A stretch of DNA of 64,000 bases from positions 62,001 to 126,000 of the forward strand of contig NZ_JARGDO010000005.1 of the NCBI RefSeq assembly GCF_029211185.1, read 5' to 3'. A program made the translations under genes and the position numbers. The notes under the pieces were generated by a model, which was not told where the DNA came from, made no database searches, and saw only the letters and a program-made list of their open reading frames with translations. Shown one piece after another: positions 47,430 to 61,740 of this stretch. Each line of letters begins with the position of its first letter. Position 1 is the first letter of the stretch. The DNA comes from Tessaracoccus caeni. GTDB taxonomy: Bacteria; Actinomycetota; Actinomycetes; Propionibacteriales; Propionibacteriaceae.

Positions 47430-48947
47430 CTACTTAGCGCCGCACGCGCTCTGGGGGGCCTCGGTCACGACCGGGCGACCGAGAGTGGGCATACCCAGCC
47501 CCACTCCGACCGGCTTCGGAGCGCTGATCGAGGCCTCCCACGCGTCTCCGCCCCGGGTGCGACGAAGCCCCCGCGGCGGCAGGTCGGAGTTCAGATGATG
47601 CGGAGCGGCGTGGGTGATCGTCGCCATGGCGATGTCGCCGGGGCGCGGCCGCTCGGCCGGATCGGCGCTGACGGCGACGTGCACCAGGCGGTTGTCGCGG
47701 GCGCGTCCGCTCATCCGGTTGGTCTCGGCGTCCTTGCGGCCCTCACCCAGCGCGAACATCACCTCGACCTCCTGCCCCTCGAGCTTCTTGTTCTCGTCCC
47801 AGGCGATCTCGCCCACCAGATCGACCAGCCGCTCGTAGCGCTCCTGGACCACCTGCTTGGGCACCTGGTTGGGCATGGTGGCCGCCGGCGTGCCGGGGCG
47901 GATCGAGTACTGGAAGGTGAAGGCTGCGGAGAACCGGGACTCGCGCACCACGTCGAGGGTGCCCTGGAAGTCGGCTTCCGTCTCGCCGGGGAAGCCGACG
48001 ATGATGTCGGTGGTGATCGCCGCGTGCGGCATGGCCTCGCGGACCCGGTCGATGATGCTGAGGAAACGCTTGCTGCGGTAGGAGCGGCGCATCGACTTCA
48101 GGATCGCGTCGGAGCCCGACTGCAGCGGCATGTGCAGGCTGGGCATCACGTTGTGGGTCTCCGCCATGGCCGCGATCACGTCGTCGGTGAAGTCCTTGGG
48201 GTGCGGCGAGGTGAAGCGCACCCGCTCCAAGCCCTCGATCTCACCGCAGGCGCGCAACAGCTTGGCGAAGGCCTGGCGATCGCCGAACTCCACACCATAG
48301 GCGTTGACGTTCTGGCCCAGCAGCGTGATCTCCTGCACGCCCTGGGAGACCAGCATCTCGATCTCGGCCAGGATGTCGCCGGGACGACGGTCGGTCTCCT
48401 TGCCGCGCAGCGCGGGCACGATGCAGAAGGTGCAGGTGTTGTTGCAGCCCACGGAAATCGAGACCCAGCCGGAGTACGGCGACTCGCGCCGGCTCGGCAG
48501 GTTGCTGGGGAAGGTCTCCAGCGCCTCCTTGATCTCCACCTGGGCCTGCTTCTCGACGCGGGCGCGCTCCAACAGCACCGGCAGCGAGCCGACGTTGTGG
48601 GTGCCGAAGACCACGTCCACCCAGGGCGCCTTCTTGACGATCAGGTCACGGTCTTTCTGCGCCATGCAGCCGCCGACGGCGATCTGCAGATCGGGCCGCG
48701 TCGACTTGATCTTGGCCATGTGGCCGAGGTTGCCGTAGAGCCGGTTGTCGGCGTTCTCGCGCACCGCGCAGGTGTTGAACACCACCACGTCGGCGCCGTT
48801 CCCCAGGCCCTCCGTGTCGCCCTCGGCACGCTGCAACCCGGCCTCCTCCAGCAGTCCACTGATCCGCTCGGAATCGTGGACGTTCATCTGGCAGCCGTAG
48901 GTGATCACGTTGTACGTGCGGGGCGTGGACATCGAGGACGTAGACAT
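47430..48947 (-). CDS. miaB: tRNA-2-methylthio-N6-dimethylallyladenosine synthase
   Basis: Radical-SAM methylthiotransferase acting on i6A37 of tRNA. The 505-residue protein has the UPF0004 N-terminal domain ([18 protein letters not shown], with further Cys in NTCAVRENA and GGCMAQK) that binds the second iron-sulfur cluster. The radical-SAM CxxxCxxC is GCNNTCTFC (about 167-175). A TRAM-like C-terminal domain follows. It remains intact, unlike its relative rimO near 59061. Confidence 0.95.
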
Positions 48948-57931: not shown

Positions 57932-58429
57932 TCAAAAAACTCTGAGCAGCATCCGGAAGGCGTGTTCGATGGACGCCTGACGGATGGCCTCGCGGTCGCC
58001 GTCGAAATGCACGAGTTCCGTGAACCGCGGCCGGCCCGACATGCCCCTCTTCTGCCCGACGACGGCGAACCACACGGTGCCGACCGGGTGACCCTCGATC
58101 GCGGTGGGGCCCGCCACGCCCGTCGTAGCGACTCCCCAGTCGGCGTCGCAGCGACGCAGCGCACCCTTGGCCATCTGCAGCGCGGTGAGCTCGTTGACCA
58201 CGCCCTTCTCGGTGATCAGCTCGAGATCGACGCCTGCGAGAGTGTTCTTGAGGTCGCTGGCGTAGGTGATGAAGCCGCCGCGGTAGACCGCCGACGCGCC
58301 GGGCACGGAGGTCAGCGCCGAGCCGATCCCTCCGCCGGTGATGGACTCGCAGGTGGCGAGGGTCAGGGTGCGCTGCCGCATCATCTCGATCACCTGACGG
58401 GCCAACTCCACGCTTCCACTCATCGCCAT
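57932..58429 (-). CDS. CinA C-terminal-type nicotinamide-nucleotide amidohydrolase
   Basis: A 165-residue single-domain CinA (PncC type): [36 protein letters not shown], and the closing [20 protein letters not shown]. It deamidates nicotinamide mononucleotide in NAD recycling; the N-terminal molybdopterin-binding-like domain of long CinA is absent, as usual in actinobacteria. TAGACT 7 nt before the ATG suggests a leaderless mRNA. Confidence 0.93.
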
Positions 58430-58436
58430 GGCGCCA

Positions 58437-58442
58437 AGTCTA
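58437..58442 (-). promoter_or_regulatory. leaderless-type -10 (TAGACT) of cinA
   Basis: On the minus strand TAGACT is followed after 7 nt by the ATG at 58429; no ribosome-binding site is present. Confidence 0.55.
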
Positions 58443-58479
58443 GAGGCGGGCTCTCAGCGGTTTCACTCAGGGGTTGCGC

Positions 58480-59064
58480 TCAGGCCCTGCTCTTGCCCTC
58501 GGTACGGATGCGCTGCGCCTCGCGCAGGTAGTCGAGGCCGGTGAGCACGGTGAGCACCAGCGCGGCCCACATGATGCCCTGAGCGATGTAGCTCAGCCAG
58601 ACCGGAAGATTCGACAGCCCCACCAGGTACAGGATCAGCGCGACCGACTGGGTGACCGTCTTCAGCTTGCCGCCGCGGTTGGCCGCCATGATGCCGTACT
58701 TGGCGATGGCCGCGCGCAGCCAGGTGATGCCCCATTCCCGCACCAGGATGATGATGGTGAAGTACCACGGCAACTCGCCGAGGATGCTGAGCGAGATGAA
58801 TGCGGCGCCGGTCAACGCCTTGTCGGCGACGGGATCCCAGAGCTTCCCGAAGTCGGTCACCAGGTTGTACTTGCGGGCGATGTTGCCGTCGGCCATGTCC
58901 GTGAGGATGGCCACCGTGAACGCCACCGACGACCAGATCCGCCAGGTGGGATCGTCCGGTCGCAGGAACAAGATGATCAGGAACACCGGCACCAAGATGA
59001 TGCGCAGCACGGTCAGCGCATTGGGCAGGTTGAAGTTGCTCGGCTTGGTGGCCTCGCTGGTCAT
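58480..59064 (-). CDS. pgsA: CDP-diacylglycerol--glycerol-3-phosphate 3-phosphatidyltransferase
   Basis: Membrane CDP-alcohol phosphatidyltransferase of 194 residues. The catalytic signature D-x2-DG-x2-AR-x8-G-x3-D-x3-D is complete (DMADGNIARKYNLVTDFGKL then WDPVAD), with several membrane helices around it. It makes phosphatidylglycerol phosphate. The ATG overlaps the stop of the rimO remnant (ATGA), and GGAGG lies 5 nt upstream inside that remnant. Confidence 0.92.
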   Translation of the reverse strand: MTSEATKPSNFNLPNALTVLRIILVPVFLIILFLRPDDPTWRIWSSVAFTVAILTDMADGNIARKYNLVTDFGKLWDPVADKALTGAAFISLSILGELPWYFTIIILVREWGITWLRAAIAKYGIMAANRGGKLKTVTQSVALILYLVGLSNLPVWLSYIAQGIMWAALVLTVLTGLDYLREAQRIRTEGKSRA

Positions 59065-59192
59065 GGTGCCTCCACTTCTACGATCTGGAAGCCGCCATCC
59101 TCGAGCCTGGCGGCCAGCTCCTCCGAGTCCACGTCATTGCGTGCGCAACCGAGCGTCGCGATGTGGACGGATCGGAGGCTGGTTGCGGTCAT
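59061..59192 (-). pseudogene. rimO: 43-codon N-terminal remnant of rimO
   Basis: Between ftsK and pgsA, where many actinomycetes carry rimO, a short frame encodes VHIATLGCARNDVDSEELAA and then RLEDGGFQIVEVEAP before a stop that overlaps the pgsA start. TLGCARNDVDSEELA is the diagnostic start of the ribosomal protein S12 methylthiotransferase, including its first iron-sulfur Cys. Everything after about residue 38 of the usual 450-500, including the radical-SAM domain, is missing. It cannot be an active RimO. The reading frame is intact and coupled to pgsA. Confidence 0.8.
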
Positions 59193-59217
59193 CAGATACC
59201 AATTATCCCGCCGGGGA

Positions 59218-61740
59218 CTAACCGTTCGCCAGGTTCGCGAGAACCTCGTCGAGATCCTCGGGTTTGACCAGCACGTCGCGGGCCTTGGAGCCCTCGGACG
59301 GACCGACGACGCCGCGGGACTCCAGGATGTCCATCAGGCGGCCGGCCTTGGCGAAGCCGACGCGCAGCTTGCGCTGCAGCATCGACGTGGAGCCCAGCTG
59401 GAGCTCCACCACCAGGCCGCAGGCGTCGAGCACCAGCTCCAGGTCGTCGCCGATGTCGTCGACCACCTTCTTCTCCGACGCGCCGGGAGCGGTGACGTCC
59501 TCGCGGTAGGTGGGCTGGAGCTGTCCGGAGATGAAGCTCACCACCTCGCGGATCTCCGACTCGTTCACCCACGCGCCTTGCACGCGGATGGGCTTGCCGG
59601 AGCCCATCGGCAGGAAAAGCCCGTCGCCCTTGCCCACCAGGCGCTCGGCGCCCGGCTGGTCCAGGATGACGCGAGAATCCGTCATCGACGACGTGGCGAA
59701 GGCCAGCCGGGATGGCACGTTGGCCTTGATCAGGCCCGTGACCACGTCGGTCGACGGACGCTGGGTGGCCAGCACCAGGTGGATGCCGGCGGCGCGGGCG
59801 AGCTGGGTGATGCGCACCACCGACTCCTCGACGTCGCGCGGGGCCACCATCATCAGGTCGGCCAGCTCGTCGACCACCACCAGCAGGTAGGGATACGGCG
59901 CCAGCTTGCGCTCGGAACCAGGCGGCAGCACCACCTGGCCGGCGCGCACCGCCTTGTTGAAGTCGTCGACGTGCCGGAACCCGAAGGCGGCCAGGTCGTC
60001 GTAGCGCATGTCCATCTCGCGCACCACCCAGGCCAGCGCCTCGGCGGCCTTCTTCGGGTTGGTGATGATGGGCGTGACAAGGTGCGGAATGCCCTCGTAC
60101 TGGTTCAGCTCGACGCGCTTCGGGTCGACCAGCAGCATCCGCACCTCTTCGGGCGTGGAGCGCATCATGATCGAGGTGATCAGCGAGTTGATGAAGCTCG
60201 ACTTGCCGGAGCCGGTGGCGCCCGCCACCAGCAGGTGCGGCATCTTGGCCATGTTCGCCACGACGAAGCCGCCGTCGACGTCCTTGCCCAGGCCCACCGT
60301 GAGCGGATGATGGTCGTTGCGGGCCTTGTTCGAGCGCAGCACGTCGCCGAGCGAGACCACTTCCTTATCGAGGTTGGGGATCTCGACGCCGATCGCGGAC
60401 TTGCCCGGAATGGGCGTGAGAATGCGGATCTCGTTGCTGCCCACCGCGTAAGCGATGTTGTCGGCCAGGCCGGTGACCTTGCTCACCTTGACGGCGGGGC
60501 CGAGCTCCACCTCGTAGCGGGTGACCGTCGGGCCCCGCGTGTAGCCGGTGACGCGGGCGTCGATCTCGAACTCGCGCAGCACCTCGGCGAGCTGACGCAC
60601 CACCTTGTCGGACGCCTCGCTGCGCGCCTTGGGCTTGGAGCCGGGCACGAGCAGCCGCTCGTCAGGCAGCTGGTACAGCACGTCGCCGTCGAGCTGCAGC
60701 TGCTCGCCTCGCGGCACGTCGATGGGCGGTGCCGGGGGCTGCAACGGCTCGGGCTCGGGCGCCGCGAAGGTGACCGGCTCGACAGGGGCGGGCTCGGCCT
60801 TGGCGCCGCGACGCCGTCCCGCCGTGACGGGCTTGGGCTGAGGCTCGGGCTCGGATTCGAGCTCGGCCCACCGGTCGTCCCAGGACTTCTCGTCGGGGTC
60901 GGACACCAGCGGGGTGTCGTAGGGCACGTCGACGCCGAGGGTGAGCTTCTCCTTCTCCACCGCCGGCTTCTCGACCAGCGCGCCCAGCAGGCCGCCGATA
61001 CCGGCGACGATGTCGCGCACCGGGCGTCCGATCACCATCACGACGCCGTACAGCGCGACGATGGTCAGCAGCGGGATGGCCAGCCAGATCGTCCCCAGAT
61101 CCACCAGCATGCTGGAGGAGACGAAGCCGAGGATGCCGCCGGCCTCCCGCACCAGGTCCATCTGGTCGGGACGGGGCACGCCGTGGGCGATGCTCACCAG
61201 GCCCAGCACGCCGAGTGTGAGCAGCACCCATCCCATGCCCGTGCTGGGGGCGCGGTCGACGTCGGCGGGGTGGCGCAGCACGCGCCAGGAGCCGTAGTAC
61301 AGGACGGCGGGCACCGCCACGGCGAGGGTGCCGAAGATGGTGGTCAGCGCGATGCGCACCCACTCGGCGGCGCCGTCGAGGTTGGACCACACGCCACCCG
61401 AGGCGACGATGGCCAGCGCCAGCAGCAGCAGGCCCCAACCGTCGCGACGCAGGGCGGGCTCGACGCTGTTGGCCGAGCCGCCGATGCTGCGCGCGATCCA
61501 GCCCACGCCCGAGGCGAGGCCGCGGAAGATCGCGGCGATGCCCTTCAGGATGCTGGTTCCGACGCCAGGCCCCTGCTTGGGCTTCTTTGCCGGGGGGCGC
61601 GCGGAGGACGCACGCGTGGTCGATTTGCCAGCCCCTTTGGGGGCCGGCTTCTTGGCCGTGGAACGTGCAGCGCCTGACCCGCTCGAGGAGCGCGCCTTAG
61701 TGCCGGTGTTCCGCGCTGGGGAAGAAGAGCGGGACGCCAT
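59218..61740 (-). CDS. ftsK: DNA translocase FtsK
   Basis: Septal DNA pump of 840 residues: basic, Ser/Lys-rich N-terminus, four membrane helices (about 75-240), a Pro/Glu-rich linker, then the motor with Walker A GATGSGKSS (about 506-514), Walker B LVVVDELADLM and MLLVDPKRVEL. The C-terminal gamma winged helix (LRVGFAKAGRLMDILESRGV) would read the orienting KOPS-type sequences. I start at ATG 61740, with TAACGT 7 nt upstream. Downstream comes the rimO remnant. Confidence 0.95.
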   Translation of the reverse strand: MASRSSSPARNTGTKARSSSGSGAARSTAKKPAPKGAGKSTTRASSARPPAKKPKQGPGVGTSILKGIAAIFRGLASGVGWIARSIGGSANSVEPALRRDGWGLLLLALAIVASGGVWSNLDGAAEWVRIALTTIFGTLAVAVPAVLYYGSWRVLRHPADVDRAPSTGMGWVLLTLGVLGLVSIAHGVPRPDQMDLVREAGGILGFVSSSMLVDLGTIWLAIPLLTIVALYGVVMVIGRPVRDIVAGIGGLLGALVEKPAVEKEKLTLGVDVPYDTPLVSDPDEKSWDDRWAELESEPEPQPKPVTAGRRRGAKAEPAPVEPVTFAAPEPEPLQPPAPPIDVPRGEQLQLDGDVLYQLPDERLLVPGSKPKARSEASDKVVRQLAEVLREFEIDARVTGYTRGPTVTRYEVELGPAVKVSKVTGLADNIAYAVGSNEIRILTPIPGKSAIGVEIPNLDKEVVSLGDVLRSNKARNDHHPLTVGLGKDVDGGFVVANMAKMPHLLVAGATGSGKSSFINSLITSIMMRSTPEEVRMLLVDPKRVELNQYEGIPHLVTPIITNPKKAAEALAWVVREMDMRYDDLAAFGFRHVDDFNKAVRAGQVVLPPGSERKLAPYPYLLVVVDELADLMMVAPRDVEESVVRITQLARAAGIHLVLATQRPSTDVVTGLIKANVPSRLAFATSSMTDSRVILDQPGAERLVGKGDGLFLPMGSGKPIRVQGAWVNESEIREVVSFISGQLQPTYREDVTAPGASEKKVVDDIGDDLELVLDACGLVVELQLGSTSMLQRKLRVGFAKAGRLMDILESRGVVGPSEGSKARDVLVKPEDLDEVLANLANG

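Follow-up and report, generated by a model that had tools for sequence, protein, structure and literature searches.

The window analysed here, a 64,000-nucleotide stretch of a Tessaracoccus caeni contig (genome G000 in the comparisons below), carries a 43-codon open reading frame between ftsK and pgsA. On the alignments described below, this frame joins approximately 39 codons from the 5' end of rimO in frame with approximately four from its 3' end. RimO is the methylthiotransferase acting on Asp88 of ribosomal protein S12 (TIGR01125). We put the probability that rimO was deleted in this way, with loss of RimO activity, at roughly 0.8, for a scar known from one genome (that of the window) and from sequence only. 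The deletion withstood every test applied. Taken as a whole, the locus records the loss of a dispensable modification enzyme, an ordinary and recurrent event that here left an unusually tidy scar; the tidiness is best read, we infer, as the survival of the expression signals of pgsA. No published description of the locus was found by a search to which subscription journals were mostly out of reach. The features referred to throughout are the following (positions of the window, basis in brackets):

61740 to 59218 (59218..61740), minus strand: ftsK, open frame of 840 aa (open reading frame; conserved C-terminus)
59202..59207, minus strand: GATAAT, a -10-like box situated 9 nt upstream of the remnant's ATG (conserved as NATA[AC]T in relatives)
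59061..59192, minus strand: rimO remnant, 43 codons, whole frame with the stop included (sequence and profile matches)
59076..59192, minus strand: segment descended from the N-terminal end of RimO, codons 1-39 (congener alignments and column comparison; boundary uncertain by a few codons)
59061..59075, minus strand: segment descended from the C-terminal end of RimO, about V-E-A-P-stop (3' ends of congeners; boundary uncertain)
59069..59073, minus strand: GGAGG, Shine-Dalgarno-like site for pgsA within the final codons of the remnant (sequence)
58480..59064, minus strand: pgsA, intact, 194 aa (TIGR00560, above cut-off)
47430..48947, minus strand: miaB, the sole full-length methylthiotransferase found by the RimO model in G000 (TIGR01574)

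Identity of the remnant

The remnant starts with ATG, ends with TGA and encodes 43 amino acids (MTATSLRSVHIATLGCARNDVDSEELAARLEDGGFQIVEVEAP). When it was compared with five NCBIfam families, TIGR01125 (RimO) scored highest (25.6 bits, E-value 5.7e-6), with residues 9-39 aligning to profile positions 2-32 of 432; the Pfam model UPF0004 gave 26.5 bits (E-value 6.4e-6) and marginally missed its gathering score of 27 bits. Out of 24 congeners, 23 have a longer RimO frame whose N-terminus matches the remnant, with identities of 67-83%. Judged from these matches, the likeness to RimO is not due to chance, and the RimO-like start followed by a stop after 43 codons that the initial annotation described corresponds exactly to this frame. 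Its descent and its locus, between ftsK and pgsA, are those of RimO, and its single Cys, also correctly reported at the outset, occupies the position of the first Cys of the auxiliary cluster.

The remnant differs from RimO in having neither the rest of the UPF0004 domain nor the radical-SAM and TRAM domains. In the accessible parts of two papers the radical-SAM motif of RimO is given as CxxxCxxC (PMC5352715; PMC3347575), and the second of these, to the same extent, gives the auxiliary-cluster residues of the Escherichia coli enzyme as Cys17, 53 and 82. With one Cys in 43 residues, the remnant has no CxxxCxxC motif and only one Cys where RimO has three for the auxiliary cluster, and its 25.6 bits compare with a membership cut-off of 356.95 bits for TIGR01125. 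The predicted product cannot be an enzyme.

Both neighbouring genes have open frames and show good conservation. PgsA scored 140.6 bits with TIGR00560 (cut-off 109.1), and its nearest records are from Arachnia, Tessaracoccus species and uncultured Propionibacteriaceae, the highest identity being 77% to T. antarcticus (named contigs). The C-terminal 250 residues of FtsK are 87-93% identical to those of congeners.

Deletion and junction

Alignments of congeners to the remnant stop at its residue 39 or 40, and its end (gtg gag gca cca tga) is matched in the same frame by the ends of many intact congeners, which read like gcg gag gcg aag tga. Since both termini of rimO are represented in one frame, the scar consists of the two ends of the gene joined in frame. 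Intact copies (n = 33), measured from 13 residues before LGCARN, have 463-477 codons with a median of 474; compared with this median, about 430 codons (about 91%) are missing from the 43-codon frame. The ftsK-pgsA locus was examined in 37 genomes (36 numbered genomes and one named contig), and full-length rimO lies between the two genes in 33 of them. The initial estimate that more than 90% of the gene had been deleted is borne out by these comparisons.

In the preferred explanation, rimO of this species lost its catalytic body through one in-frame deletion of about 430 codons. The spared ends, as the sequence shows, are the start of rimO, preceded by the -10-like box, and the final rimO codons, which contain the pgsA ribosome-binding site and the ATGA overlap. 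An in-frame junction would arise in one case out of three in the absence of selection, which was counted against the preferred explanation; G000 has no close intact relative for comparison of the junction.

That an assembly or sequencing artefact conceals a full rimO is very unlikely. The assembly is in 82 contigs, which would allow for such an error, but the locus lies well within a contig of 206 kb, the two ends of rimO meet in frame and the body of rimO is absent elsewhere in G000. Moreover, the break regions share no exact repeat longer than 11 nt in the 33 intact relatives, too short for an assembly collapse.

RimO activity and ribosomal protein S12

The initial annotation had called for a search of the full genome for an intact rimO. 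When all of G000 (4.16 Mb, 82 contigs, completeness 100) was searched with the TIGR01125 profile, no second rimO was found: there were two matches only, the remnant and a protein at 285 bits (cut-off 357), the latter being identified as MiaB by the model for that family (TIGR01574, 460 bits against a cut-off of 355). As the genome holds only the remnant and MiaB, loss of S12 methylthiolation is predicted, that is, RimO activity is predicted to be absent and Asp88 of S12 to be unmodified in this species. The target Asp is retained: the S12 stretch KDLPGVR is present both in G000 and in G048, a congener whose loss of rimO is described below, and no change around Asp88 was found in these two genomes.

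RimO is dispensable as far as can be told from an E. coli rimO mutant, for which the accessible part of the report gives slightly reduced growth as the sole difference (PMC3347575), and from the other Propionibacteriales that are without rimO. The species offers a natural case without rimO next to congeners that carry the gene, among them T. antarcticus and T. bendigoensis, and is useful for probing the role of S12 methylthiolation.

Distribution of rimO among relatives

Among 39 genomes of the genus, G000 included, 32 scored above the NCBIfam cut-off for RimO; the seven below it were G000 (the remnant), G048, G008, G043, G014, G042 and G050. The last three were rejected as losses, their assemblies being fragmented (rimO of G014 is interrupted by a contig end). 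In G008 and G043, rimO is broken into pieces and so is miaB, which suggests sequencing errors. G048 consists of one contig with a single match to the RimO model, below the cut-off. G000, G048, G008 and G043 are also the four of the 37 loci that are without full-length rimO. The cut-off is strict: it was passed by none of 12 queried genomes, including G147 (352.5 bits) and G152 (351.3 bits) with their long rimO frames, and by only 6 of 14 control genomes. What supports a call of absence is therefore the lack of a second full-length match.

Among 149 genomes of the family with a completeness of at least 90%, 143 gave a match when searched with the remnant. The six that did not were G048, G014, G075, G091, G158 and G169, and the RimO model found nothing above its cut-off in G048, G075, G091, G158 or G169. 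Across the order, a match was obtained for 173 of the 196 genomes sampled and, by the order-wide tally, for 27 of 29 genera. The genomes without a match number 23, and the 20 listed comprise 17 of genus g3, two of genus g35 and G075. No sampled genome of g3 or g35 (19 among those listed) matched the RimO N-terminus query, and rimO loss may therefore be old in these two genera; G026 (g3), the sole genome of either to be checked with the RimO model, gave one match, below the cut-off.

Several short frames were rejected as further remnants. A 56-aa open frame in G152, a candidate second case in the family, is a frame break within a long rimO, and the short frames of G144, G136, G146, G159 and G203 (145 aa in the last) run into contig ends.

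A tree of 40 taxa, built from the FtsK C-terminus and PgsA, places G048 together with G002, G004 and G005, all three with rimO (support 100), and pairs G000 with G007, which also has rimO, with a support of only 65. As G048 and G000 each group with rimO-carrying genomes, the two losses in the genus are independent, and on these genome comparisons the loss of rimO is recurrent. The whole-gene losses of G048, G075, G091 and G026 resemble that of G000 in that no RimO was found and pgsA is retained; they differ from it in that no recognisable rimO reading frame remains (for G091, as assessed from match positions only). The earlier proposal that the lineage lacks the S12 modification thus stands in so far as G000 has no second rimO, and is too broad as to the lineage: the scar is in G000 only, and G007, its weakly supported neighbour, has a full rimO.

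Expression signals and a possible lead-in for pgsA

The last four bases of the remnant, ATGA (59061-59064), are shared with the start of pgsA at 59064, so that its stop overlaps the next start as in a coupled lead-in frame. The coding strand has GGAGG 4 nt upstream of the pgsA ATG (CCTCC on the plus strand, 59069-59073). Both the overlap and the ribosome-binding site had been pointed out in the initial annotation and are confirmed here. In 32 of the 33 intact relatives the rimO stop lies in ATGA or GTGA, and PgsA is read from this overlap (G005 has TGATG), PgsA being recognised by a strict motif in 24 of the 33 frames and by eye from the N-termini in the other 9; a GGAG/GAGG/AGGA-like site precedes pgsA in 30. 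The stop/start overlap is therefore ancestral, and any coupling between rimO and pgsA predates the deletion. According to the accessible part of a review that covers closely spaced ORFs, NTGA is their most frequent spacing (PMC12548453). The remnant is like the NTGA-coupled short ORFs described in that part in being short, in its -4 nt spacing and in having the next start inside its stop; it is unlike them in deriving from a deleted enzyme gene, and its own coupling is putative.

Upstream, a NATA[AC]T box precedes rimO in 30 of 36 loci (G000 included), compared with a mean of 1.19 and a maximum of 6 in 500 mononucleotide shuffles, and in 29 of the 36 it lies 3-14 nt ahead of the first in-frame start after it. 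A GATAAT/GATACT-like box was seen in 27 of the 33 intact relatives, the exceptions being G001, G007, G009, G013, G016 and G044; as G007 keeps rimO without it, the box is not indispensable. P. acnes belongs to the same family. Its RNA-seq, in the accessible part of the report, revealed TAnnnT boxes whose centre lies some 9 nt upstream of the transcription start, together with numerous leaderless mRNAs (PMC3848588). The conserved box, being suitably spaced from the start codon, suggests a nearly leaderless rimO-pgsA transcript. In G000 it begins with G instead of the T of TAnnnT, which makes it a -10-like site only and was counted against this explanation. No two-box sigma-70 promoter was found in 58400-59600 by a strict scan (chance expectation 0.1), and no special RNA fold was seen (z -0.87).

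A nearly leaderless mRNA would be read from the ATG of the remnant, which would then serve as the transcription start of pgsA and as a translated lead-in; ribosomes would end at ATGA and then start pgsA, and the peptide itself would probably be without function. The translational lead-in already envisaged in the initial annotation is plausible, and for the remnant region as a lead-in for pgsA expression we infer a chance of about one half. G048, G075 and G091, which presumably express pgsA without such a remnant, count against it. A stronger version seems unlikely: here selection would retain the remnant because pgsA, unable to initiate independently, requires it as a leaderless lead-in, and the scar would set the output of phosphatidylglycerol synthesis. 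The locus illustrates how the first gene of a two-gene unit, being dispensable, can go without harm to the second, the deletion sparing the promoter-and-start end and the coupling end.

Age or possible constraint of the scar

Over the 31 N-terminal codons, G000 retains 19 of the 20 columns invariant in 35 relatives, and its terminal branch is long (0.20 aa substitutions per site, FtsK C-terminus and PgsA). The median non-synonymous difference of G000 from the others is 0.112, the seventh highest of 33 in a ranking that left out G008, G013 and G043, and within the range of intact copies; synonymous differences from G007 amount to 13.5 of 24 sites in the N-terminal stretch. In a simple, equal-rates neutral simulation run from the present sequence, the probability of at most one change at the 20 invariant columns was 0.152, 0.064 and 0.013 at distances of 0.08, 0.1 and 0.15 substitutions per site, respectively. 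Column retention and simulation together therefore imply that the deletion occurred late on the long branch or that the scar is constrained; for this one genome, the scar would be either young or constrained.

A plain recent gene loss would account for a young scar, with the remnant as passive debris not yet eroded and pgsA expressed by read-through from ftsK or from its own ribosome-binding site. This reading shares the deletion with the preferred explanation and differs from it solely in the lead-in role. It agrees with the presence of the remnant in G000 only, with the retention of pgsA without a remnant in the other family members that lost rimO, and with the simulation, which is compatible with a scar as old as about 0.1 substitutions per site. 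The intact frame, box and overlap and the 19 conserved columns argue against it, given the length of the terminal branch, and we rate it a serious possibility at slightly under even odds.

Third-position GC is 0.77 for the whole remnant versus 0.95 for pgsA, which was counted against the preferred explanation; that of the 31 N-terminal codons is 0.81, within the range of 0.74-1.0 in 32 relatives. The latter value and the intact frame would suit a new functional microprotein with one Cys, as the initial annotation had alternatively proposed. This proposal found no backing in the comparisons, in which no other genome had the short form among the matches listed for congeners, family and order, and descent from RimO accounts for the conservation; a functional microprotein is thus most improbable.

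The ftsK-pgsA region in other genomes without rimO

In G048 (C1:1856000-1874000), the gap between ftsK and pgsA is 92 nt long and contains a 27-residue frame (MSGMGKSMREKDKDKDQRGTREGWRHA), the ATG of which overlaps the ftsK stop as ATGA. This frame has no clear likeness to rimO, and comparison of the gap with rimO of G004 revealed no remnant, neither end being clearly above chance (the left match was equalled by 158 of 300 shuffles and the right by 16 of 300). G075 (C1:983500-987500, at about 1.8-2.2 kb) is a family member without rimO in which a CATACT box lies 6 nt upstream of the ATG of pgsA, so that this gene looks as though it had turned leaderless; ftsK was not found within the 4 kb examined. 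In G091 (C184:1-4500), there is no rimO between ftsK and pgsA; the pgsA match starts at 2867, inside the end of the ftsK match at 2880, and the two genes therefore abut or overlap.
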